Assembly (NCBI GenBank): GCA_020832925.1
Contig: JAJHRF010000012.1
Span: forward strand, 1-37,883
From: Desulfurococcaceae archaeon
GTDB lineage: Archaea; Thermoproteota; Thermoprotei_A; Sulfolobales; Ignisphaeraceae
Length of the DNA stretch: 37,883 nucleotides
Direction: 5' to 3'
The notes beneath the pieces were generated by a model that saw only the letters and a list, made by a program, of their open reading frames with translations, had not been told where the DNA came from and did no database searches. Shown piece by piece: positions 14,676 through 36,276 of this stretch; positions within the stretch are counted from its first letter, which is position 1, and every line of letters starts with the position of its first letter. The translations under genes and the position numbers were made by a program.

Positions 14676-14909
14676 ATGCCTAAAGCTATAATCCTCATAA
14701 ATACAGATGTAGGTGCAGAAGAAGAAGTAGCTAAAGCTTTATCATCTATACCTGAGGTTAAGGAGGTACATATAGTGTACGGTATTTATGATGTTGTAGC
14801 GATAGTTGAAGCCTCCACATTTGATTCACTTAGAAACGCTGTAATTGCTAAGATTAGAAAGTTCCCGCATATAAAGAGTACTACAACATTGATAGTTGTT
14901 GAGAAATAG
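14676..14909 (+). CDS. Stand-alone Lrp/AsnC ligand-binding (RAM) domain protein
   Basis: A 77-residue protein equal to the ligand-binding half of Lrp/AsnC regulators, with no DNA-binding helix-turn-helix. The ferredoxin-like pattern AIILINTDVGAEEEV-ALSSIPEV-VHIVYGIYDVVAIVE-TTTLIVVEK is complete. Free RAM domains in archaea assemble into rings and bind amino acids or modulate full-length Lrp proteins. The ATG at 14676 follows GGGATAGGG; TATA-like TTATATG lies about 45 nt upstream. Confidence 0.85.
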   Translation: MPKAIILINTDVGAEEEVAKALSSIPEVKEVHIVYGIYDVVAIVEASTFDSLRNAVIAKIRKFPHIKSTTTLIVVEK

Positions 14910-24310: not shown

Positions 24311-25651
24311 TCAGCATTTGCTTAGCACAGTTCTAGCGTAAACTATAGCTCTCTCAATAAGTTTTCTATGAGACCCTAGATACTTCCTGTAGTCCAGTAT
24401 CTGTTGAAGTTCTTCGCGTGAGAATATCTTTGCTACCTCTTCATCTCTTAGTAACCTTTCTAAGAAGTTCTCACCGCTAACCATGGTCATAGCCAGCTCC
24501 TGCATTTTCTTGTGGGCTACATGTCTTGGAATTCCTTTCTCTACCATTTTCACCATAACGGCTTCGGACATTATAACTCCTTTCATCAAATCTAAGTTCT
24601 TCTTCATAGCTTCTTCATCTACATATAGAACGGATAAGAGTTTCTCCATATCTATGAGCATCTGGTCTACAACTAGGAAAGCGTGTGGTAACATAATTCT
24701 CTCGCTACTGCTATTAGTTAAATCTCTTTCATGCATTAACGGTATGTTCTCTAGAGCTGTTGTTACCAGAGCCCTCATTATCTTAGCCAACCCTGATATC
24801 CTTTCAGCTATAACAGGATTCCTCTTATGGGGCATAGTACTACTACCGATTCTTTTAACAGACTCGTATAACTCCCCTATCTCAGGTCTAGAAAGCTCTC
24901 TAATTTCAAGAGCAAATCTATCAAGTTGACTTGCAAGTATAGCTAGATCTGATACAAGTTCAGCAAACCCATCTCTAGGAGCTACCTGAGTAGATATTTC
25001 ATGCGGTTCTAGCCCTAGGTATTCAAGAGTATACCTCTCCACAGCTAAACCTTTATCTCCCCATGCAGCCATAGTACCAACAGCTCCACTCATCTTACCT
25101 TTGACAACTCTTCTCCTACATTCACAAAGTCTTTCATAACTACGAGAAAGTTCATATACATAGTTAGCAAGTTTGAACCCGAAGGTTATGGGAAGAGCGT
25201 GTTGACCATGAGTTCTCCCAACCATTAATGTATCTGCGTATCTCAAAGACATCTCGATCAGCATCTCTATTACTTTCCTAAGCCTTTTAAGTACTAGGTT
25301 TAGAGCATCGCTGAAAGCTAAAGCCCACGCTGTATCGACTATATCGTAACTTGTTGCACCTAAATGTACATATCTACCACATTCACCACATCTCTCTCCG
25401 AGTAGGTAAGCAAGAGAAGCTATATCGTGACCTAGCTCTTTCTCTTTAGCATAAACTTCTTCTGCTGATATCTGTGAAGCGCATCTCTCTACAACTTTAT
25501 AGCATTCCTCAGGAGCTATACCTGCTTTAGCTAAGCCATAGAGAAGAGCTTTCTCCACATCTATATACCGTTTAACCATAGATTCAGCTCTAAAGATATT
25601 CCGCATATCTTCAGATCCATACCTCCAATCAAGAACACATATACTCTCCAT
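24311..25651 (-). CDS. purB: Adenylosuccinate lyase
   Basis: PurB cleaves fumarate from SAICAR and from adenylosuccinate, steps of IMP and AMP synthesis. The fumarase/aspartase-superfamily signature SSTMPHKRNP is clear, as are GRTHGQHALP and LGATSYDIVDTAW. Length 446 aa is normal for the archaeal/Bacillus-type enzyme. The start ATG at 25651 lies 9 nt after the purP(1) stop, so it is the second gene of a purP-purB unit under the palindromic operator near 26870. Confidence 0.95.
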   Translation of the reverse strand: MESICVLDWRYGSEDMRNIFRAESMVKRYIDVEKALLYGLAKAGIAPEECYKVVERCASQISAEEVYAKEKELGHDIASLAYLLGERCGECGRYVHLGATSYDIVDTAWALAFSDALNLVLKRLRKVIEMLIEMSLRYADTLMVGRTHGQHALPITFGFKLANYVYELSRSYERLCECRRRVVKGKMSGAVGTMAAWGDKGLAVERYTLEYLGLEPHEISTQVAPRDGFAELVSDLAILASQLDRFALEIRELSRPEIGELYESVKRIGSSTMPHKRNPVIAERISGLAKIMRALVTTALENIPLMHERDLTNSSSERIMLPHAFLVVDQMLIDMEKLLSVLYVDEEAMKKNLDLMKGVIMSEAVMVKMVEKGIPRHVAHKKMQELAMTMVSGENFLERLLRDEEVAKIFSREELQQILDYRKYLGSHRKLIERAIVYARTVLSKC

Positions 25652-25660
25652 ATAGATCCC

Positions 25661-26785
25661 CTAGGTCACTATCTCCTCGATACACCCCATGTAGAGACAG
25701 TCCTTTATCTCTATAGCTATCCTCCTACCCATGCTGATAGGCTTACCGAAGTACAGCTTACTGTACTGCCCCCCAATACCCATGTGGACATTAGTACCAC
25801 CACCGATCCTGGTAGCTACATCGAATACAACTACATCTAGATCAGGTGTCACCATGAGCTGCAACGTGAATGGCCCTATGATACCTGGGGGCTCCAGCTT
25901 TATCGTTGCATCGACGAATCTATCCCCGATTTCGAAAAGCTTCTCCAACATACTCTCCCTAATTGTGGCCATCTCATGGCCTATCTCTATCATCTCTATA
26001 TCTACGATCTCCCGGAGTTCTAGTTGTACATCTGCTGGTAACCTCAGTACTCCATCTAGATTCGTCTGGATCCTTCTATCGATGCTGATTACCTCTACAT
26101 CTTTTCTAGCGATACTCCTGAAGTAGTTAACGTTGAAATGCGCTCCTATTATGAGCTCCTCTATCGAGGCTTTCACAAGATCGTTTTCACTTACTACACC
26201 ATCTGAAATAAGTTTTCTAAACTTTTTCCAGAAATCATCTCTATCTACTGCTACGAAGAACCCTCTTTCAACACGTTTCTTTGCATGAGGCATTTTAACT
26301 ATGACAGGTCTATCTATTTCATCTGGGTTTGAGTATGTTCTAGGTCTTCTAATCCCTGCTTCATCTAGAAGCTTATAGTAAGTCTTGATCCCTACTCTCT
26401 CCTCATACCTCAGCAAATACCTATTCCCAAATATTGGGATAGGGAAATTCTGCTCGATATTGTCGTAGCCTACATATACAGCGAAACTTCTATTAGGTAT
26501 GAAGATGGAGTTCCGAGACCTTAGAATCGATACCACATCGTTTTTCACAACATCGGCAAAGCTATAGAGTATTAGAGGGTAGTCAACAACTCTCCTAAAT
26601 CTTAAGTAAGGCTTTTCTCTCCCTTTCTGACATACAGCGATAGTTTTGAAACCCTCGTCTTTAGCTCCATCGAATACATCTAGAGCTGAATGACTTGCTA
26701 TCGTAGCTATGTGGATAGCTTCAACATCTAGTCTATAGTCTTTGAGTAGATCTCTTGGATTATATCGTGAGCTCAAGGTCTCCAC
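25661..26785 (-). CDS. purP: Formate-dependent AICAR formyltransferase (PurP), copy 1
   Basis: PurP is the archaeal ATP-grasp enzyme that makes FAICAR from AICAR, formate and ATP, replacing the bacterial folate-dependent PurH formylase. The N-terminus [20 protein letters not shown] is the family signature; the ATP-grasp core includes [29 protein letters not shown] and the C-terminal [12 protein letters not shown] metal/ATP segment. Full length at 374 aa. The start is GTG at 26785; TATA-like ATTTATAA near 26810-26817 makes the transcript leaderless or nearly so. It heads the purP-purB unit. Confidence 0.93.
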
Positions 26786-26862: not shown

Positions 26863-26882
26863 ATCTACATAGCTATGTAGAT
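26863..26882. promoter_or_regulatory. Perfect 20-nt palindrome, candidate purine operator
   Basis: ATCTACATAGCTATGTAGAT is a perfect inverted repeat of 10-nt arms. Its core TACATA-GC-TATGTA is the same as the sites between purE and purC. It lies about 80 nt upstream of the purP(1) start and ends exactly at the purP(2) stop codon, upstream of the TATA-like element, where it could regulate the purP(1)-purB unit. Confidence 0.6.
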
Positions 26883-27943
26883 TATGTTAAGACTTTCTCT
26901 AACATGTTTCTCTGAATAGCTAACCTGATTTCTCTTGCTATTCTTCTACCTGTACTCATAGGCTCTGACCAGTATAGATATGAGTAGGGGCTACCATCTA
27001 TATAGAGATTAGTACCTGCAACAATTCTACCTGAGAACTCAAATACCTTTATCTCCATATTATCATCTATAACGCTTTCTAAACAGAAAGGCCCTATTAC
27101 CCCGGGGGGTAAGCTCTTCTTAGTCTCTTCAACAAATTTAATACCGTATTCTAGAACTTTCGTTAGCAAGCTTTCTCTTAAGACTAGAGGTATGTTTCCT
27201 ACAACTACGAAACTAGGTTCAGTACCGAGTTCTGCAACAATATTGTGAGGAATTCTTCGAAGACCATCTACATTAGTTTCGTACCGTATATCTGCACCAA
27301 GTATCTCTACTCTTTCTAGTACTGGGCTATAGAAGTAGTGGAAGTAAGCTGTAACACCAACTAAATAGTCCTGAACCATAGCCTCTTCGAAAGATTTTAT
27401 AAGACCTTCCTCGATTCTCTTCTTAAGACCTTCAACAACCTCTGTACCTGATCTAGCTAAGAAATACCCTTTACCACCTTTAGCACCAGGTAGTTTAACT
27501 ATGACTAGCCTGTCTATCTTATCTCCAACTCTGTAGACCTTGGGTATAGGTATACCTGCTCTCCTCAGCAGCTCCATCTTCGCCCATTGATCAGCTTCTA
27601 CTCTGAATAACTTCCTCAACCCGAATATCGGTACCTCGATATTTTCAGCACAATCGAGACCTACGTACTCTACATAGCTACCGTGAGGCACTATAACAGC
27701 GTTCAGAGATCTCAGTTTTTCAACAATATCTCTTCTACAGAGCTCTCTCCAGCTATCTAGAACTACAAAGTAGTCTATCAAATGCTTAAACTGTTCATAG
27801 AACCAAAGTCTATCTCTAACAACTATGGCAATTGTTCTGAAACCCTCTATCTTAGCTCCATGAAATATCTGAAGAGATGAATGACTAGCTAAAGTTGCTA
27901 TCGACAACTTCTCCAAATCATACCTAGTCATGAACTCCATCAT
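26882..27943 (-). CDS. purP: PurP family ATP-grasp protein, copy 2
   Basis: Second PurP paralogue, sharing with copy 1 the N-terminal [20 protein letters not shown] block, the [18 protein letters not shown]-grasp strand, and the C-terminal [12 protein letters not shown] segment. In copy 1 the corresponding late motif is [11 protein letters not shown], so the last active-site region differs slightly. Crenarchaeal PurPs often occur in two groups; which copy makes FAICAR is unresolved here. Starts possible at ATG 27943, 27940 or 27931; an upstream open stretch to 28006 overlaps purK and is rejected. It lies 16 nt after the purK stop, third in purE-purK-purP(2). Confidence 0.9.
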
Positions 27944-27959
27944 ATATGTGCACCAGCAC

Positions 27960-29063
27960 TTAGACGTAGTTTTCAACACCTTCGGGGTAAAGAAGTTTAG
28001 TAACATGTCTTATCTTCTCTTCAACTTCTTCTATAGTTTTCCCGACGATGTTTATATGCCCCATCTTTCTTCTCCTCCTAACCTCGTTCTTTCCATACCA
28101 ATAAATTTTCCCTATCTTTAATACCTCTATAGGTATGTTATTTAATGATAAACCGAGTATATTAACCATGCCGCCCGGAGATAGGATTTCTACTTCAGCT
28201 AGATCTACACCTATTATAGCTCTAATATGCTGTTCAAATTGTGAAACATTTGCTGTATCTAATGTATAGTGACCTGTGTTATGTACTCTTGGAGCAAATT
28301 CGTTAACCATAACGTCGCCATCTTTAACAAAGAATTCTATAGCCATAACCCCTACATAGTTAAGCTTAGTTGCTATCTCTACAGCTATATCAAACATTTT
28401 CTTCGTCACTATTTCGTTCCTCAGAGGTCCATAGTTATATACTAAAATCCCTTTAACATTCATATTATATGTAGGAGGATATAGCTGAATTTCACCGTTA
28501 TGATTTCGAGCAAGAACTATTGAGGCTTCGTAATCGAAGTCTACATACTCTTCAACTATGAATACATCTCTTATTTTAGCAATTGCGTCATATATTTGTT
28601 CAAAATCGTTTCTACTCTTGATAAAGAACTGGCCCTTGCCATCATAACCACCTTTAGACTGTTTAACAACAGCTAAGTAGTTAAACTCATTTCTTACGAG
28701 TTTAAGAACCTCGAGAGGATCCTCTGTAATGAAGAACTTAGGGATAGGGATACCTAGTTTTTTAAAGAACATTCTTTCTCTCCAACGTTCATGCTTAAGC
28801 TCTACAACATCTAGTCTTGGGATAAGCTTACCCTTTTCTTCTGCATATCTTAGAACTTCGTAGGGTATATGTTCGAATTCGTATGTAACGATATCTACTA
28901 TCTCTACCATATCTTTGTATTCATCGAAATTAAAACATTTATCAGCTAATCTACATGCAGGAGCACTTAGATTATCCACGACGTAGAAAGTTAGAGGATA
29001 CCTTCTACCCTCTAGAATCATCATCCATCCTAGCTGCCCACCCCCTAGGATCCCTATCCTCAT
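27960..29063 (-). CDS. purK: N5-carboxyaminoimidazole ribonucleotide synthetase
   Basis: PurK carboxylates AIR with ATP and bicarbonate to N5-CAIR, which PurE then rearranges. The N-terminus GILGGGQLGWMMI is the family start and fixes the ATG at 29063, one nucleotide after the purE stop. ATP-grasp features: VVKQSKGGYDGKGQFFI, IVEEYVDFDYEASIV and NEFAPRVHNTGHYTLD. Length 367 aa. It forms a unit with purE and purP(2). Confidence 0.95.
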   Translation of the reverse strand: MRIGILGGGQLGWMMILEGRRYPLTFYVVDNLSAPACRLADKCFNFDEYKDMVEIVDIVTYEFEHIPYEVLRYAEEKGKLIPRLDVVELKHERWRERMFFKKLGIPIPKFFITEDPLEVLKLVRNEFNYLAVVKQSKGGYDGKGQFFIKSRNDFEQIYDAIAKIRDVFIVEEYVDFDYEASIVLARNHNGEIQLYPPTYNMNVKGILVYNYGPLRNEIVTKKMFDIAVEIATKLNYVGVMAIEFFVKDGDVMVNEFAPRVHNTGHYTLDTANVSQFEQHIRAIIGVDLAEVEILSPGGMVNILGLSLNNIPIEVLKIGKIYWYGKNEVRRRRKMGHINIVGKTIEEVEEKIRHVTKLLYPEGVENYV

Positions 29064-29064
29064 T

Positions 29065-29547
29065 CTACTCAAGTCTTGTAGAGAGAACCTCATTCTTCAT
29101 ATCCTCTGCAAATTTCTTTAATTTTTCAGCAATCTCAGGATACTTAATCCCCAGAATCCTCAAAGCCAAAAGAGCTGCATTCCTAGCATTACCTATAGCT
29201 ACTGTTGCCACTGGTGTACCGTAAGGCATCTGAACAATTGATAGAAGTGAATCAAGTCCATTTAAATACTTTGATGGTATTGGTACACCGATAACAGGTA
29301 AATGAGTTAGAGATGCAACCATCCCAGGAAGATGTGCAGCTCCACCTGCACCAGCTATTATAACCTCTATACCCTTTTCAGCAGCTGTTTTAGCGAACTC
29401 AAACATGAACTCAGGCGTTCTATGAGCAGATATAACTCTTGCCTCGACCTCTACCCCGAACTGTTTCAAAATTTCAACAGCTTCTTTCATGTATTCCCAA
29501 TCGTTTTTACTACCCATTATTACAGCAACTTTCGGGATAAGTACCAC
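29065..29547 (-). CDS. purE: N5-CAIR mutase
   Basis: PurE class I mutase converting N5-CAIR to CAIR. Motifs: [14 protein letters not shown] with the catalytic Ser/Asp region, SAHRTPE, and [15 protein letters not shown]. Its association with PurK marks the two-enzyme, bicarbonate-using branch. Length 160 aa. The start is GTG at 29547; TATA-like TTATATAG at about 29571-29578 and the palindrome at 29549-29566 lie immediately upstream, so the mRNA is probably leaderless and the palindrome overlaps the start region. Confidence 0.95.
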
Positions 29548-29752
29548 CTATACATAGATATGTATATAAGCTATATAAGTCTTCTGTTTTACTTAACCGT
29601 ATTAAATTTACATATTTATGTATATTAATATTTACACTTAGATTTTCACACTATTTAACTCAACATGGAAAACGCTTTTACATATTTATGTATATTTAAG
29701 TTTGATTATGTAGAAGAGAGATTTATATTCAGTATTACATAATCTATGTAAT
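29548..29752. promoter_or_regulatory. Divergent purE/purC control region with four palindromes
   Basis: This 205-nt AT-rich region serves both directions. It holds four inverted repeats of core TACATA-Nx-TATGTA: 29549-29566 (spacer GA, arms extended to TATACATA/TATGTATA), 29609-29622 (TT), 29679-29692 (TT) and 29735-29751 (TTACATA-ATC-TATGTAA). The second and third lie within an exact 20-nt direct repeat, TTTACATATTTATGTATATT, 70 nt apart. The first abuts the purE start; the fourth sits between the purC TATA-like box (TTTATATT, 29722-29729) and the purC start. Such placement suggests a repressor binding over both transcription starts, with inner sites perhaps for looping. Confidence 0.75.
29722..29729 (+). 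promoter_or_regulatory. TATA-like element of the purC operon
   Basis: TTTATATT lies about 24-31 nt upstream of the GTG at 29753 and 33-40 nt upstream of the ATG at 29762, the normal archaeal distance for a start at or just before the initiation codon. The fourth palindrome lies directly downstream. Confidence 0.6.
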
Positions 29753-29761
29753 GTGGAGAAT

Positions 29762-30517
29762 ATGAGGAAACTCCAACTTGTTTACGAAGGGAAGAGTAAA
29801 CGTGTTTACTCCTTAGATGAAGATAGCCTTGTTATGGAGTTCAAAGACGATGTAACAGCTTTAAACGGGAATGTCAAAGCTATTGCCATGGGAAAGGGGG
29901 TTCTTAGTGCACGTCTATCTGCTTTCTTCTTCAAGCTTCTAGAAGATCACGGTATTAAGACTCATTTCCTCAATTATGATGGGTGCAGAATTGTTGTAGT
30001 TAAACGTCTTAATATAATACCTGTAGAGGTTATTGTGAGGAATTATGCGTATGGATCACTCTTCAAGAGAATACCTCTCTACAGACCTCTCCAAAGATTA
30101 GATCCCCCACTTATAGAGTTTCACTACAAAGATGATGACCTACATGATCCGCTAGTACTTGAAGAAGATCTTATTAGAACCAGGCTATTGACGCATGAGG
30201 AACTCGATTTCATTAAAAACGTTAGTCTGAAGGTTAACGATATACTAACTAAGTTCTTTGAGTCTAGGAATCTTAAATTCATAGATATGAAGCTAGAGTT
30301 CGGTAGAACAAAGAAAGGTGAAATACTTGTTGCTGATGAGATTTCTGGTGATACGTTTAGAGTTGTAGATGACCAAGGTAACCATCTAGATAAGGAGATA
30401 TTTAGAAGGAGTCGAGATGTAGCTCTTCTTTTGAAAGCTTACATAAGGTTGGCACAGGTTGTAGGGGTGGGTATAGATGACATTTATACACCGTGTAGAG
30501 ATTATTATAACGAATAA
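29762..30517 (+). CDS. purC: SAICAR synthetase
   Basis: PurC joins CAIR and aspartate with ATP to give SAICAR. The N-terminus LVYEGKSKRVYSL and the blocks VEVIVRNYAYGSLFKR, DMKLEFGR and VADEISGDTFRV are diagnostic. Length 251 aa from the ATG at 29762; an in-frame GTG at 29753 would add three residues and could serve as the leaderless start. It is the first gene of an eight-gene plus-strand pur operon. Its 3' end overlaps purS by 41 nt. Confidence 0.95.
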   Translation: MRKLQLVYEGKSKRVYSLDEDSLVMEFKDDVTALNGNVKAIAMGKGVLSARLSAFFFKLLEDHGIKTHFLNYDGCRIVVVKRLNIIPVEVIVRNYAYGSLFKRIPLYRPLQRLDPPLIEFHYKDDDLHDPLVLEEDLIRTRLLTHEELDFIKNVSLKVNDILTKFFESRNLKFIDMKLEFGRTKKGEILVADEISGDTFRVVDDQGNHLDKEIFRRSRDVALLLKAYIRLAQVVGVGIDDIYTPCRDYYNE

Positions 30518-30737
30518 GAAAGGTGTTAAAGATCCTGAGGGAGAGACTATACATAAGCATTTAATACTTAGGAAAGGGTATAACGTGGTTCACAACGTTA
30601 GAACAGGGAAATACTTGTTACTCACGGTTAGCGCATCCTCGGAAGAAGAAGCTGTTAATATTGTTAAAGAGATGTGCGAGAAATTGAGGATATACAACCC
30701 TGTGGTCCACGATATCGAGGTGAGAATACGTGGTTAA
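30477..30737 (+). CDS. purS: FGAM synthase small subunit PurS
   Basis: PurS is the ~80-residue scaffold that bridges PurL and PurQ in the three-subunit formylglycinamidine ribonucleotide synthetase. The RVEIIITNKKGVKDPEG opening and KYLLLTVSASSEEEA match the family. The only usable start is the ATG at 30477, giving 86 aa and overlapping purC by 41 nt; this is a long overlap for the operon. It then overlaps purQ by 8 nt (GTGGTTAA). Confidence 0.92.
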   Translation: MTFIHRVEIIITNKKGVKDPEGETIHKHLILRKGYNVVHNVRTGKYLLLTVSASSEEEAVNIVKEMCEKLRIYNPVVHDIEVRIRG

Positions 30738-31419
30738 AGTAGCTGTACTGAAGTTCCCTGGTACGAATTGCGATGAAGATGTACACCATGTTTTAAAGAA
30801 CGTTTTCTTTGTAGATTCCCAGATTGTTTGGTATAAAAACTTCTCGTTAAATGGTTGGGACGCCATTATTATCCCTGGAGGGTTTAGCTATGGAGATTGG
30901 CTTAGAGCTGGCGCAATAGCTGCGAGAACTTCTGCAATTGAAGAGCTTATTAATGCAAGAGATATAGGGGTACCTGTTCTCGGTATATGTAACGGTTTTC
31001 AAATACTTGTTGAAGCTGGTCTGCTTCCAGGAGCTCTTCTACCTAATGAGAGTGGCAGATTTGTATGTAGATGGGTAAGAACATACGTAGAGAGACCTAG
31101 AGGTCCGTGGCTTTCACTAACTACAGAAGGCTACGAAATACATATGCCTGTAGCGCACGGTGAAGGGAGGTACTATATAGATGAAGAGAATTACCAGAAT
31201 ATTTTACTGAAGAGCCCTTTGATCAGGTATGCCAAAGGCGATAATCCTAATGGAAGTGTTTACGATATAGCTGGTGTAGCATCTGAGGATGGTCTTATCC
31301 TCGGGCTTATGCCTCATCCAGAGAGATCTTCTGAAGACCTTCTTCCTCCAAGAGGTTTCAGACCTGGGGGAAGGATAATATTCGAAAGCCTTGTCTACTC
31401 GCTTAAAAGGGGTTGGTGA
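30730..31419 (+). CDS. purQ: FGAM synthase glutaminase subunit PurQ
   Basis: Class I glutamine amidotransferase subunit that supplies ammonia to PurL. The nucleophile is Cys87 in LGICNGFQ; the second part of the triad lies in LMPHPERSS near the C-terminus. The N-terminus VAVLKFPGTNCDED is standard. Start GTG at 30730 inside purS; the stop overlaps the purL ATG in TGATG. Length 229 aa. Confidence 0.95.
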   Translation: MVKVAVLKFPGTNCDEDVHHVLKNVFFVDSQIVWYKNFSLNGWDAIIIPGGFSYGDWLRAGAIAARTSAIEELINARDIGVPVLGICNGFQILVEAGLLPGALLPNESGRFVCRWVRTYVERPRGPWLSLTTEGYEIHMPVAHGEGRYYIDEENYQNILLKSPLIRYAKGDNPNGSVYDIAGVASEDGLILGLMPHPERSSEDLLPPRGFRPGGRIIFESLVYSLKRGW

Positions 31420-33617
31420 TGCCTCTTAGTTTAGAAGAGGTTGAAGAGATTAGGAGGATACTGGGTAGAGAACCGACAGAAGAAGAACTTGCTATGTTTG
31501 AAGCTCAGTGGAGCGAACATTGTTCATATAAAAGTAGTAAGCTTCTGCTAAAATTACTACCAAGCGAAGGAAGGCATGTGGTGGTAGGTCCTGGGAGAGA
31601 TGCTCCAGCTGTTAAGGTGTTCAAGGACTGGGTAGTTGTTTTTAAAATCGAGAGCCACAACCATCCCTCTGCTGTCGATCCGTATAACGGTGCTGCAACA
31701 GGTATTGGAGGAATAGTTCGAGATATACTATCGTTAGGTGCTAAACCCATAGCTTTACTAGATATGCTCTACCTAGGTAACCCTAGGAATCCTCACGCTA
31801 ATTGGTTGATAAGAGGTATAGTTAGAGGTATAAGTGATTATGGGAATAGGATAGGTATCCCCACAGTCGCTGGCGATACGTGGTTTGACAATGCTTTTAA
31901 CAGCCAGCCTCTCGTTAACGTAGCTTGTATAGGTATAGCGAAGCCTGATAAAGTTGTTCTCACAACACCTGAGCCCGGGGATCTAATAATAATCATGGGG
32001 AATTCTACCGGTAGAGATGGTTTACTGGGGAGCAGCTTCGCTTCTAAACCTCTTGCTGAAGATGTGGATAGAGATATAGGGGCTGTTCAAGTAGGAGACC
32101 CTCTCACAGAGAAACTATTAATAGACGTTATCCAGATACTGATCGAGAAAGGCGTTGTTAAGTATATTAAAGACCTTGGCGGTGGTGGTTTAACAACAGC
32201 TGTATGTGAAACAGCTGCAGACCATAATCTAGGGGCTGTTATATATCTAGAGAAACTCCATACAAGACAGAGTTTAACACCTTTAGAACTCCTTGTATCT
32301 GAAAGCCAGGAAAGAATGCTGCTTGTGGTTAATCCGGAGAATATAGAGAGTGTAGCTAGAGTCTTGGACGAGTACGACGTTATGTACAGCGTTATAGGGT
32401 TTTTCACAGACGACGGGATTATAAAGGTTTTCTACAATGGGGTAAAGGTAGCTGAGGTACCTGCTAAAGAACTTGCAAAACCTAGACCTCTAAGAAGAGC
32501 TTCTACACCGCCTTTAGAAGTTTTGAAAGGTTTGAAACCTCTCTACAATCTGCCTCCGGAACCTAACTACGAGGAATCCATAGTAAAGGTCTTGACGTCG
32601 CTGAACATAGTCTCTAAGAGGTGGATCTATGAGCAGTACGACCATGAGGTAGGGATAAGAACAGTAGTTAAACCAGGGTATGGAGATGCTGCTGTTCTAA
32701 GACTTCTAGATGGTAGTAGACGGGGTATAGCTGTTAAAGGTGATGCTAATCCTAGATACACATACCTAGACCCTTTCAATGGAGCAGCTAATGCTGTTGC
32801 TGAATGCTTTAGAAATCTCGTAGCTGTAGGGTCTAAGCCTATAGCTATTGTTGACGAGCTAAATGCTGGCAACCCTGAGAAACCTGAGCATTTCTGGTAC
32901 TTCGAGATGATGGTTAAAGGCATTGCATGGATAGCTGAAGAACTTAAGTTACCTGTTGTAGGTGGGAAAGTGAGTTTCTATAACGAAGACCATAGAGGTA
33001 AACAGGTGAAGCCTACAGCAACTATTGTGGGCATTGGTAGGGTAGACGATATCACTAAAGCTATGACTATGGATTTCAAAGAGAATGGATCTTATATAGC
33101 TATCGTCGGTGTTACATACCCTGAGCTAGGTGGAAGCGAGTACCTCTTCAGAATATTCGGTTTAGAGGAAGGAGAGATACCCAGGCCTAGACCTTCTTCA
33201 GAACTTAGGAACGGGAAATTCGTTTACAAAGCTATTAGCTTAGGATACGTAAATGCTGTCCACGACATAAGCATAGGGGGTCTTGCAACAGCATTGATAG
33301 AGATGGCTGTGAAGGGAAAGATAGGTTTTGAAGTAGATATAGCTAAGGTTTTCGCTAGAGGTATACAACGTCTCGACGAGATCTTATTCTCGGAGACGCA
33401 AGCTCGTTACATCTTAGAGGTGAAAGGTGAGTACCTAGAGGATCTCCTAAAACTTGCCGATAGGCTCGGAGTTAAGGTTAGTATCATAGGGAGGACTAGG
33501 GATAGAAATAGCGTGGTTTTCACTAAGAACTCTACAGTTCTAGTTAATCTCGACCTCTCCTACCTATCCGATATCTACGACAAAACTCTAGAGGAAGAGA
33601 TAGAAGGTGGTGTATAG
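31419..33617 (+). CDS. purL: FGAM synthase large subunit PurL
   Basis: ATP-dependent synthetase subunit converting FGAR to FGAM with PurS and PurQ. Small-form PurL of 732 aa with two AIRS-like halves. Motifs: WSEHCSYKSSK (catalytic His34), KIESHNHPSAVDPYNGAATG, and in the second half DANPRYTYLDPFNGA. The ATG at 31419 is preferred over TTG/GTG a few codons earlier because it makes the coupled TGATG junction. The stop overlaps the purF GTG by 1 nt (TAGTG). Confidence 0.96.
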   Translation: MPLSLEEVEEIRRILGREPTEEELAMFEAQWSEHCSYKSSKLLLKLLPSEGRHVVVGPGRDAPAVKVFKDWVVVFKIESHNHPSAVDPYNGAATGIGGIVRDILSLGAKPIALLDMLYLGNPRNPHANWLIRGIVRGISDYGNRIGIPTVAGDTWFDNAFNSQPLVNVACIGIAKPDKVVLTTPEPGDLIIIMGNSTGRDGLLGSSFASKPLAEDVDRDIGAVQVGDPLTEKLLIDVIQILIEKGVVKYIKDLGGGGLTTAVCETAADHNLGAVIYLEKLHTRQSLTPLELLVSESQERMLLVVNPENIESVARVLDEYDVMYSVIGFFTDDGIIKVFYNGVKVAEVPAKELAKPRPLRRASTPPLEVLKGLKPLYNLPPEPNYEESIVKVLTSLNIVSKRWIYEQYDHEVGIRTVVKPGYGDAAVLRLLDGSRRGIAVKGDANPRYTYLDPFNGAANAVAECFRNLVAVGSKPIAIVDELNAGNPEKPEHFWYFEMMVKGIAWIAEELKLPVVGGKVSFYNEDHRGKQVKPTATIVGIGRVDDITKAMTMDFKENGSYIAIVGVTYPELGGSEYLFRIFGLEEGEIPRPRPSSELRNGKFVYKAISLGYVNAVHDISIGGLATALIEMAVKGKIGFEVDIAKVFARGIQRLDEILFSETQARYILEVKGEYLEDLLKLADRLGVKVSIIGRTRDRNSVVFTKNSTVLVNLDLSYLSDIYDKTLEEEIEGGV

Positions 33618-35011
33618 TGTGTGGAATAGCTGGTTATGTAGGTACACGTAACATTATCTCGACAATCATATCTCTACTTATAGAGGTTCAGCATAGAGGT
33701 CAAGAAGCTGCTGGAATCTCTTTAATTAGGACGGATGGTCGTATAGATGTTGTAAAAGGTCGAGGATATGTTCTCGATGTTTTTAACGAAGAGACCATAA
33801 ATATTCTTCGTATTGCTAGCGATAATATCTTCGGTGCTATAGGGCATGTGAGGTACTCTACAACAGGTGAATACCTGGAACATCAAGCTCAACCAGTAGC
33901 TTTAGGAGATGAGAATTATAGAATAGCGATAGCGTTCAACGGCACTATAGCTAACTACATCGAGTTGGCTAAGGAGTTCAATATCAGTAGTAACCGTGGA
34001 GATGTCTTTGTTCTTGCTGAAGTTATCTATAAACTTGCCCTAGAGTACGGAAAAGATGTTGTAGAAGCTTTAAAGGTATTGCCTTACTACGTTATAGGAG
34101 GTTACAGTCTAGCTGTAGCAACATCCGAGCCGAGAATAGCTATTGCACGAGATCCTTACGCGTTTAGACCTCTTGTATATGCATATAATGAGCGTGAATT
34201 TGTTTTCGCTTCAGAAACTTCTGTACTTGAATGTGTAGGCTTTAACAATTGGAGCGAGGTTTTGCCAGGGGAAATCGTGGTTTTCGATGGAAACTCCGTT
34301 GAGAAAACGAGGTCGACATTTTCTGCTGAGTTCTCTCCATGTATATTTGAGTACGTGTACTTCTCTAGACCGGACTCCATATTCAACAGTATCAGTGTAT
34401 ACAAAGCTAGGATAGGTATGGGGGTAGAGCTAGCTCTCACAAATCCTGCCCAAGGAGATGTTGTTATACCTGTTCCCGATAGCAGTAGACCAGCCGCCAT
34501 AGGTTTCAGCAAAGCCTCTGGTATACCTCTTGAAGAAGGTATTATCGCTAATAAGTACGTTGGTAGAGGATTCATAGCTCCTCCATTCATTCGAGATACC
34601 TTATCCAAGCTGAAGTACGGATTCGTTAGAGAAGCTGTAAATGGGAAAAGAGTTGTACTTGTAGATGATTCGATAGTTCGAGGTACTACTATGAGGAGCA
34701 TCGTTAGGAGGTTGAGGGAGGTAGGGGCAAAGGAGGTTCACGTAAGGATAGCGAGCCCGCCATTCAGATACCCATGCTTCATGGGTATAGATATCTCTTC
34801 TCGAGAAGAGCTTCTAGCGTGGAGGTTCAGCGATTTGAAGAATATAGCGAAGTCTATCGAAGCTGATAGTCTTGGATACAACACTGTAGAAGGTCTTCGT
34901 AGAGCTGTAGGTCTTCCCTCAGCATGTTTTGCATGTTTTACCGGTATCTACCCCTTCAAGGAATTCGATTTAGAGAAAATGGAGAAAATGATTTCGAGGT
35001 GCTACGTATGA
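33617..35011 (+). CDS. purF: Amidophosphoribosyltransferase
   Basis: PurF makes phosphoribosylamine from PRPP and glutamine, the first step of the pathway. It begins directly MCGIAGYVG, so Cys2 is the N-terminal nucleophile with no propeptide. Glutaminase landmarks HVRYSTTGE and FNGTIANY and the PRPP loop VVLVDDSIVRGTTM are intact. Cysteines in RYPCFMGID and SACFACFTG match the ligand regions of the Fe-S-type PurF. Length 464 aa. Start GTG at 33617; the stop overlaps the paralogue's ATG (ATGA). Confidence 0.96.
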   Translation: MCGIAGYVGTRNIISTIISLLIEVQHRGQEAAGISLIRTDGRIDVVKGRGYVLDVFNEETINILRIASDNIFGAIGHVRYSTTGEYLEHQAQPVALGDENYRIAIAFNGTIANYIELAKEFNISSNRGDVFVLAEVIYKLALEYGKDVVEALKVLPYYVIGGYSLAVATSEPRIAIARDPYAFRPLVYAYNEREFVFASETSVLECVGFNNWSEVLPGEIVVFDGNSVEKTRSTFSAEFSPCIFEYVYFSRPDSIFNSISVYKARIGMGVELALTNPAQGDVVIPVPDSSRPAAIGFSKASGIPLEEGIIANKYVGRGFIAPPFIRDTLSKLKYGFVREAVNGKRVVLVDDSIVRGTTMRSIVRRLREVGAKEVHVRIASPPFRYPCFMGIDISSREELLAWRFSDLKNIAKSIEADSLGYNTVEGLRRAVGLPSACFACFTGIYPFKEFDLEKMEKMISRCYV

Positions 35012-36276
35012 GCTCCTTGTTAACGGTGTACGCATTCGATGAGCTATGGAGTTTAGTAAACATTGTACGATACGGATTCCAAGCTTTACAACATAGAGGA
35101 TCCCAACTTTATGTACTCTGCACAGTTAAAGATGGTGTTACATGCTATGAAGATGACGATGTAGATATCTCTAGACATGCTCTAGATCACGTAGCTATAG
35201 CCGCAACGTATGCTGATAAGAATGGTATTAAAACAAGCGTAGTTAGTAGAGATGGAGTTGAGGTAGCCGTTGTAACAGATAGAGCTTGGAGAAAACTACC
35301 CGATTTCGCATCAGAGCTTATCAGAGAAGTTAAGAGGTGTAGAAATGTTGAGGAAGCGTTTAAGAGTACTCTACAGCGCTTCGTTGATGAAAAAGATTCT
35401 ATTCCTTCAATTCAAATCCTTACAAACAATAGAGAAGTCATCGCCTGGAGAACACCCCATGGCTTAACCCCTCTTGTTCTAGGGAGCTACTGTTTCGATA
35501 TGGCTATAGTTTCCTCGGAGTCTACAGCTGTGGATATTCTTGGTGGCGATGTTAAGAAGTTTATGGGTGCAGGGGAAGGTGTATATATCTCGCGCTACCT
35601 AGTGAAAACATTTGCGACATCCATATCCAAGGAGCCTAGTCTATGTATGTTCGAGCCACTCTATATAGCGAGACACGACGCTGTTGTCGATGGTGTAAGC
35701 GTCTACATATTCAGGAAGTTATTGGGTGAGAAACTTGCTGAACATCTAGATACTGAAGTCGATGTTGTTGTAGGTGTGCCTGAGACAGCTATACCTTACG
35801 CAATAGGTTTCTCGCATAAGATCGGGAAACCGTTTGAACTAGCTTTCGTTGCTACAGGAGGTAGAAGAAGATCTATGCTTCTCTCAGATCCTTTCGAAAA
35901 AATAATTGCTGTACATCTCAAGATGAACCCCGTAAAGTCTGTTTTAGAGGGAAAGAAAGTTGCGCTTATAGATGATAGCATGGTGACAGGGGCTACCATG
36001 AAAACTGTTGCTCAGATATTGAGGTTTAGGATCGGTGTAAAAGAGCTGCATATATTCATAGCTTCTCCACAATTAATTTCAACATGTCCTTTCGGTATAG
36101 TGAACTTAGATATGAAAACTCTGCTAGCAGCTAATCTTTCATCAGATCTCGCTAGAGATTATCTAGAAGCTGATTCGCTCCACTGGTTATCTAGAGAAGA
36201 TGTGGATACCGTGTGCAGAAAGTTCTCTTTAAAGCTATGCGGTAGATGTTTCGGAGTTAATTTCTTGGGTGGGTGA
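35008..36276 (+). CDS. PurF paralogue lacking the glutaminase nucleophile
   Basis: Homologous to PurF along its length but altered. It begins MSSLLTVYAFDEL, so no cysteine stands at position 2, and the RYST and FNGT glutaminase motifs are gone, though LQHRGSQ remains. The PRPP loop is kept as VALIDDSMVTGATM, but the flexible-loop region NKYVGRGFI of PurF is replaced by VATGGRRRSML. Cysteines matching the Fe-S region persist in STCPFGI and KLCGRCFG. It therefore probably binds PRPP or a nucleotide without using glutamine: a regulatory partner of PurF, an ammonia-using enzyme, or a sensor. The ATG at 35008 is in an ATGA overlap with purF; 422 aa, not decayed. Confidence 0.8.
   Translation: MSSLLTVYAFDELWSLVNIVRYGFQALQHRGSQLYVLCTVKDGVTCYEDDDVDISRHALDHVAIAATYADKNGIKTSVVSRDGVEVAVVTDRAWRKLPDFASELIREVKRCRNVEEAFKSTLQRFVDEKDSIPSIQILTNNREVIAWRTPHGLTPLVLGSYCFDMAIVSSESTAVDILGGDVKKFMGAGEGVYISRYLVKTFATSISKEPSLCMFEPLYIARHDAVVDGVSVYIFRKLLGEKLAEHLDTEVDVVVGVPETAIPYAIGFSHKIGKPFELAFVATGGRRRSMLLSDPFEKIIAVHLKMNPVKSVLEGKKVALIDDSMVTGATMKTVAQILRFRIGVKELHIFIASPQLISTCPFGIVNLDMKTLLAANLSSDLARDYLEADSLHWLSREDVDTVCRKFSLKLCGRCFGVNFLGG

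Follow-up and report, generated by a model that had tools for sequence, protein, structure and literature searches.

The intergenic region between the divergent purE and purC genes of an Ignisphaeraceae genome carries a cluster of short palindromes, TACATA-N2/3-TATGTA, which are probably (at roughly 80%, by our estimate from sequence) the operators by which Ignisphaera and some related hot-spring Thermoprotei control a purine regulon. A candidate archaeal purine operator had been proposed here in the original prediction, and the idea is now strongly supported by the association of every promoter copy in the genome with a purine gene and by conservation upstream of pur genes. Taken together, the confinement of promoter sites to one pathway, their recurrence in relatives and their near-fixed spacing make the purine operator well supported, and the palindromes most likely mark a new crenarchaeal purine regulon that would be bound by a dimeric factor.

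Palindromes and purine genes of the window

The window, the whole 37.9-kb stretch of DNA that was analysed, contains two divergent series of purine genes headed by purE and purC (Table 1). Comparison with homologues points to the ATG at 29762, rather than the GTG at 29753, as the likely start of purC. The plus-strand series ends with purD, which follows a purF-like paralogue; the same series is found in G009, where additional pur genes come after it (G-numbers denote genomes and L-numbers loci throughout). The PurF-like paralogue, encoded directly after purF, has only a phosphoribosyltransferase (PRTase) domain by Pfam, with the glutaminase domain absent, and the NCBIfam purF model matches its residues 165-446 only, below the cut-off. 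The arrangement of purF and PurF-like paralogue also occurs in G009, G021 and G022.

Each of the four palindromes that had been claimed within 205 nt of the purE-purC gap was confirmed in the sequence, and so was the exact 20-nt direct repeat said to accompany them (TTTACATATTTATGTATATT, at 29607-29626 and 29677-29696, 70 nt apart). The two outer palindromes had been described as overlapping the starts of purE and purC. They abut the start codons instead, with site 1 immediately preceding the GTG of purE (29547) and site 4 ending directly before the GTG at 29753, and the starts that they do cover are the predicted transcription starts. Site 4 lies 49 bp from the upstream half-site of the purC promoter. 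When the 205-nt segment (79% AT) was shuffled 20,000 times with its dinucleotides preserved, two or more exact sites never arose and a single one arose in 56 cases. The window as a whole holds five exact sites against 0.07 expected. The operator consensus reads WTTACATA-N2/3-TATGTAWA. Two elements had escaped the original prediction: a lone half-site between site 3 and the purC TATA box, and a fifth palindrome, upstream of purP.

Table 1 Purine genes, predicted promoter elements and candidate operators of the window
Feature	Position	Strand	Sequence	Remarks
purB	24311-25651	-		follows purP
purP paralogue	25661-26785	-		formate-dependent AICAR formylase family
Fifth operator	26863-26882		ATCTACATA-GC-TATGTAGAT	20-nt palindrome, exact core 26866-26879; upstream of purP 25661-26785
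purP paralogue	26882-28006	-		within purE operon
purK	27960-29093	-		
purE	29065-29547	-		first gene of purE-purK-purP operon
Site 1, purE start-site operator	29549-29566		TATACATA-GA-TATGTATA	between purE TATA box and GTG
Predicted purE TATA box	29572-29579	-	CTTATATA	predicted from sequence only
Site 2, purE upstream operator	29609-29622		TACATATTTATGTA	proximal half-site starts 35 bp from purE TATA box
Site 3, purC upstream operator	29679-29692		TACATATTTATGTA	proximal half-site starts 35 bp from purC TATA box
Lone half-site	29707-29712	+	TATGTA	exactly 20 bp downstream of site 3 half-site at 29687
Predicted purC TATA box	29722-29729	+	TTTATATT	as for purE
Site 4, purC start-site operator	29734-29752		ATTACATAATCTATGTAAT (ATTACATA-ATC-TATGTAAT)	3-nt spacer
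purC	29753-30517	+		first gene of purC-purS-purQ-purL-purF-purF'-purD
purS-like small ORF	30477-30737	+		identity by position and conserved ORF in relatives
purQ, purL, purF, purF-like paralogue	30730-36276	+		under purC promoter; purF-like paralogue 34924-36276

Distribution of the candidate operator within and beyond Ignisphaeraceae

PurC matches and the relatives found place the window genome (1.88 Mb) within Ignisphaera or beside it. Across this genome, the exact palindrome occurs 14 times against 0 for a reversed control, and widening the spacer to N1-4 gave 15 sites against 2. Seven of the 14 lie in promoters, five inside ORFs (sites within coding sequence were taken as chance) and two were unassigned. 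A genome-wide search had been named as the way to check the prediction, and its outcome is that promoter sites cluster at pur and other purine genes, in seven cases out of seven: four between purE and purC, and one each before purP, before guaA (L010, preceding the GMP synthase PP-loop subunit) and before gpt-1 (L002, preceding a GpT-1-type purine PRTase related to PDB 4TRB). The same box is thereby found at several unlinked purine transcription units of one genome (purE/purC, purP, guaA and gpt-1). A rough binomial estimate for this genome, using assumed promoter and noncoding sizes, gives a probability of ~1e-11, to be read as an order of magnitude only. In this genome a PnrA-like protein had no match, and formate dehydrogenase gave weak matches only.

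The box is also kept upstream of pur genes in relatives, the other point on which the prediction had been staked. Before purC, TATGTA-N14-TATGTA is exact in nine Ignisphaera genomes, half-sites 20 bp apart occur in 11 of 12 Ignisphaeraceae when one-letter variants are allowed, and in 8 of the 12 a TACAYA follows TRTGTA at a distance of 48-49 bp, all of these being counts over orthologous promoters that are not independent of each other. Throughout the genus the upstream element is better conserved than the start-site element, which is reduced to a half-site or missing in many genomes (G001, G002, G009). Of the exact sites that lie between genes in ten relatives, roughly 15 in all, nine stand at purE/purC, at a Bmp/PnrA-like transporter or at a formate dehydrogenase alpha homologue, and six are without evident purine link (L021, L028, L175, L176, L179 and L191). 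The promoter of the Bmp/PnrA-like nucleoside ABC transporter has an exact box in G004, G005 and G006, a half-site or variant box in G003, G008 and G010 and a weaker one in G007 and G009; the formate dehydrogenase alpha homologue is preceded by an exact box in G004, G005, G006 and G010 and by a variant in G003.

Beyond the genus, two more distant archaea (G021 and G022) carry exact palindromes in divergent purC/purP promoters, with the partner at the same 48-49 bp, and G022 has another before an SsuA/TauA-type ABC transporter. A survey of 29 further archaeal purC promoters found the TRTGTA/TACAYA pair at 48-49 bp in three (L262, L266 and L273) and one other such pair at any spacing. Most other families examined (Thermoproteales, Pyrodictiaceae, Vulcanisaeta and others) showed no box at purC, so that its occurrence is not universal.

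Formate dehydrogenase is a sensible member of such a regulon because formate is the substrate of PurP. In G021 and G022 its gene adjoins purA and the purC operon, and the G021 protein, which shares 40% identity with the Ignisphaera enzyme, exceeds the cut-off of the NCBIfam Fdh-alpha model. In two non-Ignisphaera archaea (L342, 14612-17157; L343, 14359-16916), genes for an Fdh alpha and a ferredoxin-type subunit sit beside purA, a purine PRTase gene, purP and purC, where the enzyme is a likely source of formate for PurP.

Promoter geometry and proposed mode of regulation

The purE and purC promoters are divergent mirror images built on one plan, each having a palindrome ~35 bp ahead of the TATA box and a second one that covers the predicted transcription start; TATA boxes were chosen by eye, and both they and the transcription starts are predictions. 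Towards purC the order is palindrome, half-site, TATA box, palindrome and GTG, and towards purE, mirrored, it is palindrome, TATA box, palindrome and GTG. Measured from the proximal half-site, the box-to-TATA distance is 32-37 bp at purC, purE, gpt-1, pnrA and the G022 ABC transporter, 23-25 bp at guaA and 14 bp at fdhA; the purP site of the window, ~42 bp from its TATA box by eye, falls outside the tight range. These distances differ in steps of ~10 bp, which suggests that the sites are bound on a single helical face with respect to the TATA box.

In the TrmB family, binding upstream of BRE/TATA activates and binding downstream represses (PMC4158304). By that rule, the inner sites of the purE-purC gap, upstream of BRE/TATA at fixed helical phase, would be in an activator position, and the outer sites, being located at predicted transcription starts, would be in a repressor position. 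The earlier picture of a dimeric repressor acting on both promoters is only half supported: the outer sites suit it, and the inner ones suit activation. A dual activator/repressor mode, read from the arrangement of sites, is a tentative model to which we would give only slightly less than even odds. A dimeric DNA-binding protein most likely reads the operators and would respond to purine status, with PRPP, a purine base or a nucleotide as its putative effector. In the dual mode, occupancy of the upstream operator, whose helical phase relative to TATA is fixed, would most likely activate transcription when purines are scarce, and occupancy of the start-site operator would repress it when purines are plentiful. 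The fuller proposal, in which a crenarchaeal regulator of a new type controls the whole IMP pathway, GMP synthase, purine salvage, nucleoside uptake and a formate dehydrogenase supplying PurP with formate, each promoter having a pair of operators in fixed phase to TATA, one activating and the other repressing, is more speculative, and we hold it to be possible rather than probable.

A pure repressor could also produce much of this pattern, if the start-site palindromes were its main operators and the upstream ones auxiliary, cooperative operators, with the repressor released when purines are low. It would explain why, in this genome, the predicted starts of purE and of purC each lie under a full palindrome, and why relatives place a TACAYA half-site 48-49 bp from the upstream half-site. 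It sits less well with the genus-wide record, in which the upstream element is the better kept and the start-site copy is half or absent in G001, G002 and G009, and with the exact palindromes at gpt-1, guaA, pnrA and fdhA, which lie upstream of TATA in 10-bp steps, that is, in the activator position. We consider repression alone conceivable, with the evidence leaning against it.

A broader regulator, of nitrogen, one-carbon or Lrp-type feast/famine metabolism and with targets not limited to purine genes, appears unlikely. The box at formate dehydrogenase and at the SsuA/TauA-type ABC transporter, together with several non-purine intergenic sites in G008 and G010, would suit it, and short AT-centred palindromes in regular arrays, as found here, resemble Lrp-type sites; however, all promoter sites of the window genome are at purine genes, and the formate dehydrogenase target itself leads back to purines, formate being the PurP substrate and fdhA adjoining pur genes in G021 and G022. 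The AT-richness of the segment could further be taken to indicate generic promoter or chromatin elements requiring no specific regulator, yet shuffling fails to yield such sites, the reversed control gives none in the genome, the promoter sites of the window genome are limited to one pathway and the spacings are fixed, leaving this explanation largely refuted and very improbable.

Candidate regulators, known systems and significance

Among the window ORFs scanned, Pfam identified no HTH protein, and sequence clustering of the window with 20 flanking neighbourhoods gave no linked HTH regulator. The window genome encodes five RAM-domain proteins. A stand-alone Lrp ligand-binding (RAM) protein without HTH is encoded in the window (14676-14906) and in G007 (C83:5016-5228), in the latter ~1.5 kb from purE. 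A protein in which a winged-helix-looking N-terminus is fused to a PfkB kinase, or in G008 the N-terminal part alone, is encoded at further loci (L205, 409-1758; L346, 12967-14313; L217, 6420-6929); two genomes have it close to the PnrA operon and a third has it close to guaA. Both the PfkB fusion and the RAM protein are weak leads to the missing regulator.

Three other ideas gained no support. For autoregulation of Lrp genes via the box, a scan allowing one mismatch gave no convincing copy at any of 30 Lrp-type loci. Control at the RNA level was set aside, the window having no Rfam match at gathering scores and the sites lying at or upstream of predicted starts. The GpT-1 PRTase has a C-terminal extension, which was considered as a possible DNA-binding domain; since the protein matches solved GpT-1 purine phosphoribosyltransferases (4TRB family), we read it as an enzyme under the regulon's control rather than as the regulator. 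Beside gpt-1, ~100-200 nt upstream, is a conserved GC-rich element of ~73 nt (GGCCCCCG...CTCTGCGGGGGCC; L071, L073 and L075-L080), absent from the window genome (L069) and on the opposite strand in G009. Two-sided compensatory changes affect 4 of its 16 predicted pairs across seven sequences, and the loci tested gave no Rfam or ARAGORN match; it is possibly an unlisted small RNA.

A regulon for purine metabolism and transport in Pyrococcus was reportedly predicted by Gelfand, Koonin and Mironov in 2000. It resembles the present one in being an archaeal purine regulon predicted by comparing genomes, in which a common upstream box precedes genes of both synthesis and transport; unlike the present one, it is euryarchaeal. 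Two Thermococcus purC promoters (L285 and L325) do not have the paired TACATA/TATGTA layout. The bacterial PurR regulons (LacI-type in E. coli, PRTase-type in Bacillus) likewise place synthesis, salvage and transport under one operator family, but their operator is another, the basal machinery here is archaeal, and no regulator homologous to theirs emerged. The window has 0 copies of the E. coli PurR core CAAACGTTTG; the core of the Bacillus PurBox, CCGAACA, has 0 copies within 29448-29852, around the promoters, and one elsewhere in the window.

Halobacterium TrmB, also archaeal and with purine biosynthesis targets, activates from upstream and represses from downstream (PMC4158304); it differs in being a global sugar-responsive factor with the motif TACT-N7-8-GAGTA, of which the window has 0 copies. 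Operators of Pyrococcus TrmB, TrmBL1/Tgr and Ss-LrpB are likewise missing from the window. The activators Ptr2, TFB-RF1 and TrmBL1/Tgr bind a site, palindromic or specific, that directly precedes BRE/TATA; the resemblance is one of position only, their motifs and pathways being different. The literature searched yielded no account of how purine metabolism is regulated in Crenarchaeota, and a review of archaeal purine synthesis (PMC3261824) describes, in the passages searched, no repressor or operator and gives the crenarchaeal IMP cyclohydrolase as unidentified.

A defined operator, its regulon and a promoter geometry fixed across lineages offer a direct handle on the regulator and its signal. 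With formate dehydrogenase among its members, the regulon ties the supply of formate to a purine synthesis that depends on it, and it may aid in locating missing steps of the pathway, such as the crenarchaeal IMP cyclohydrolase.
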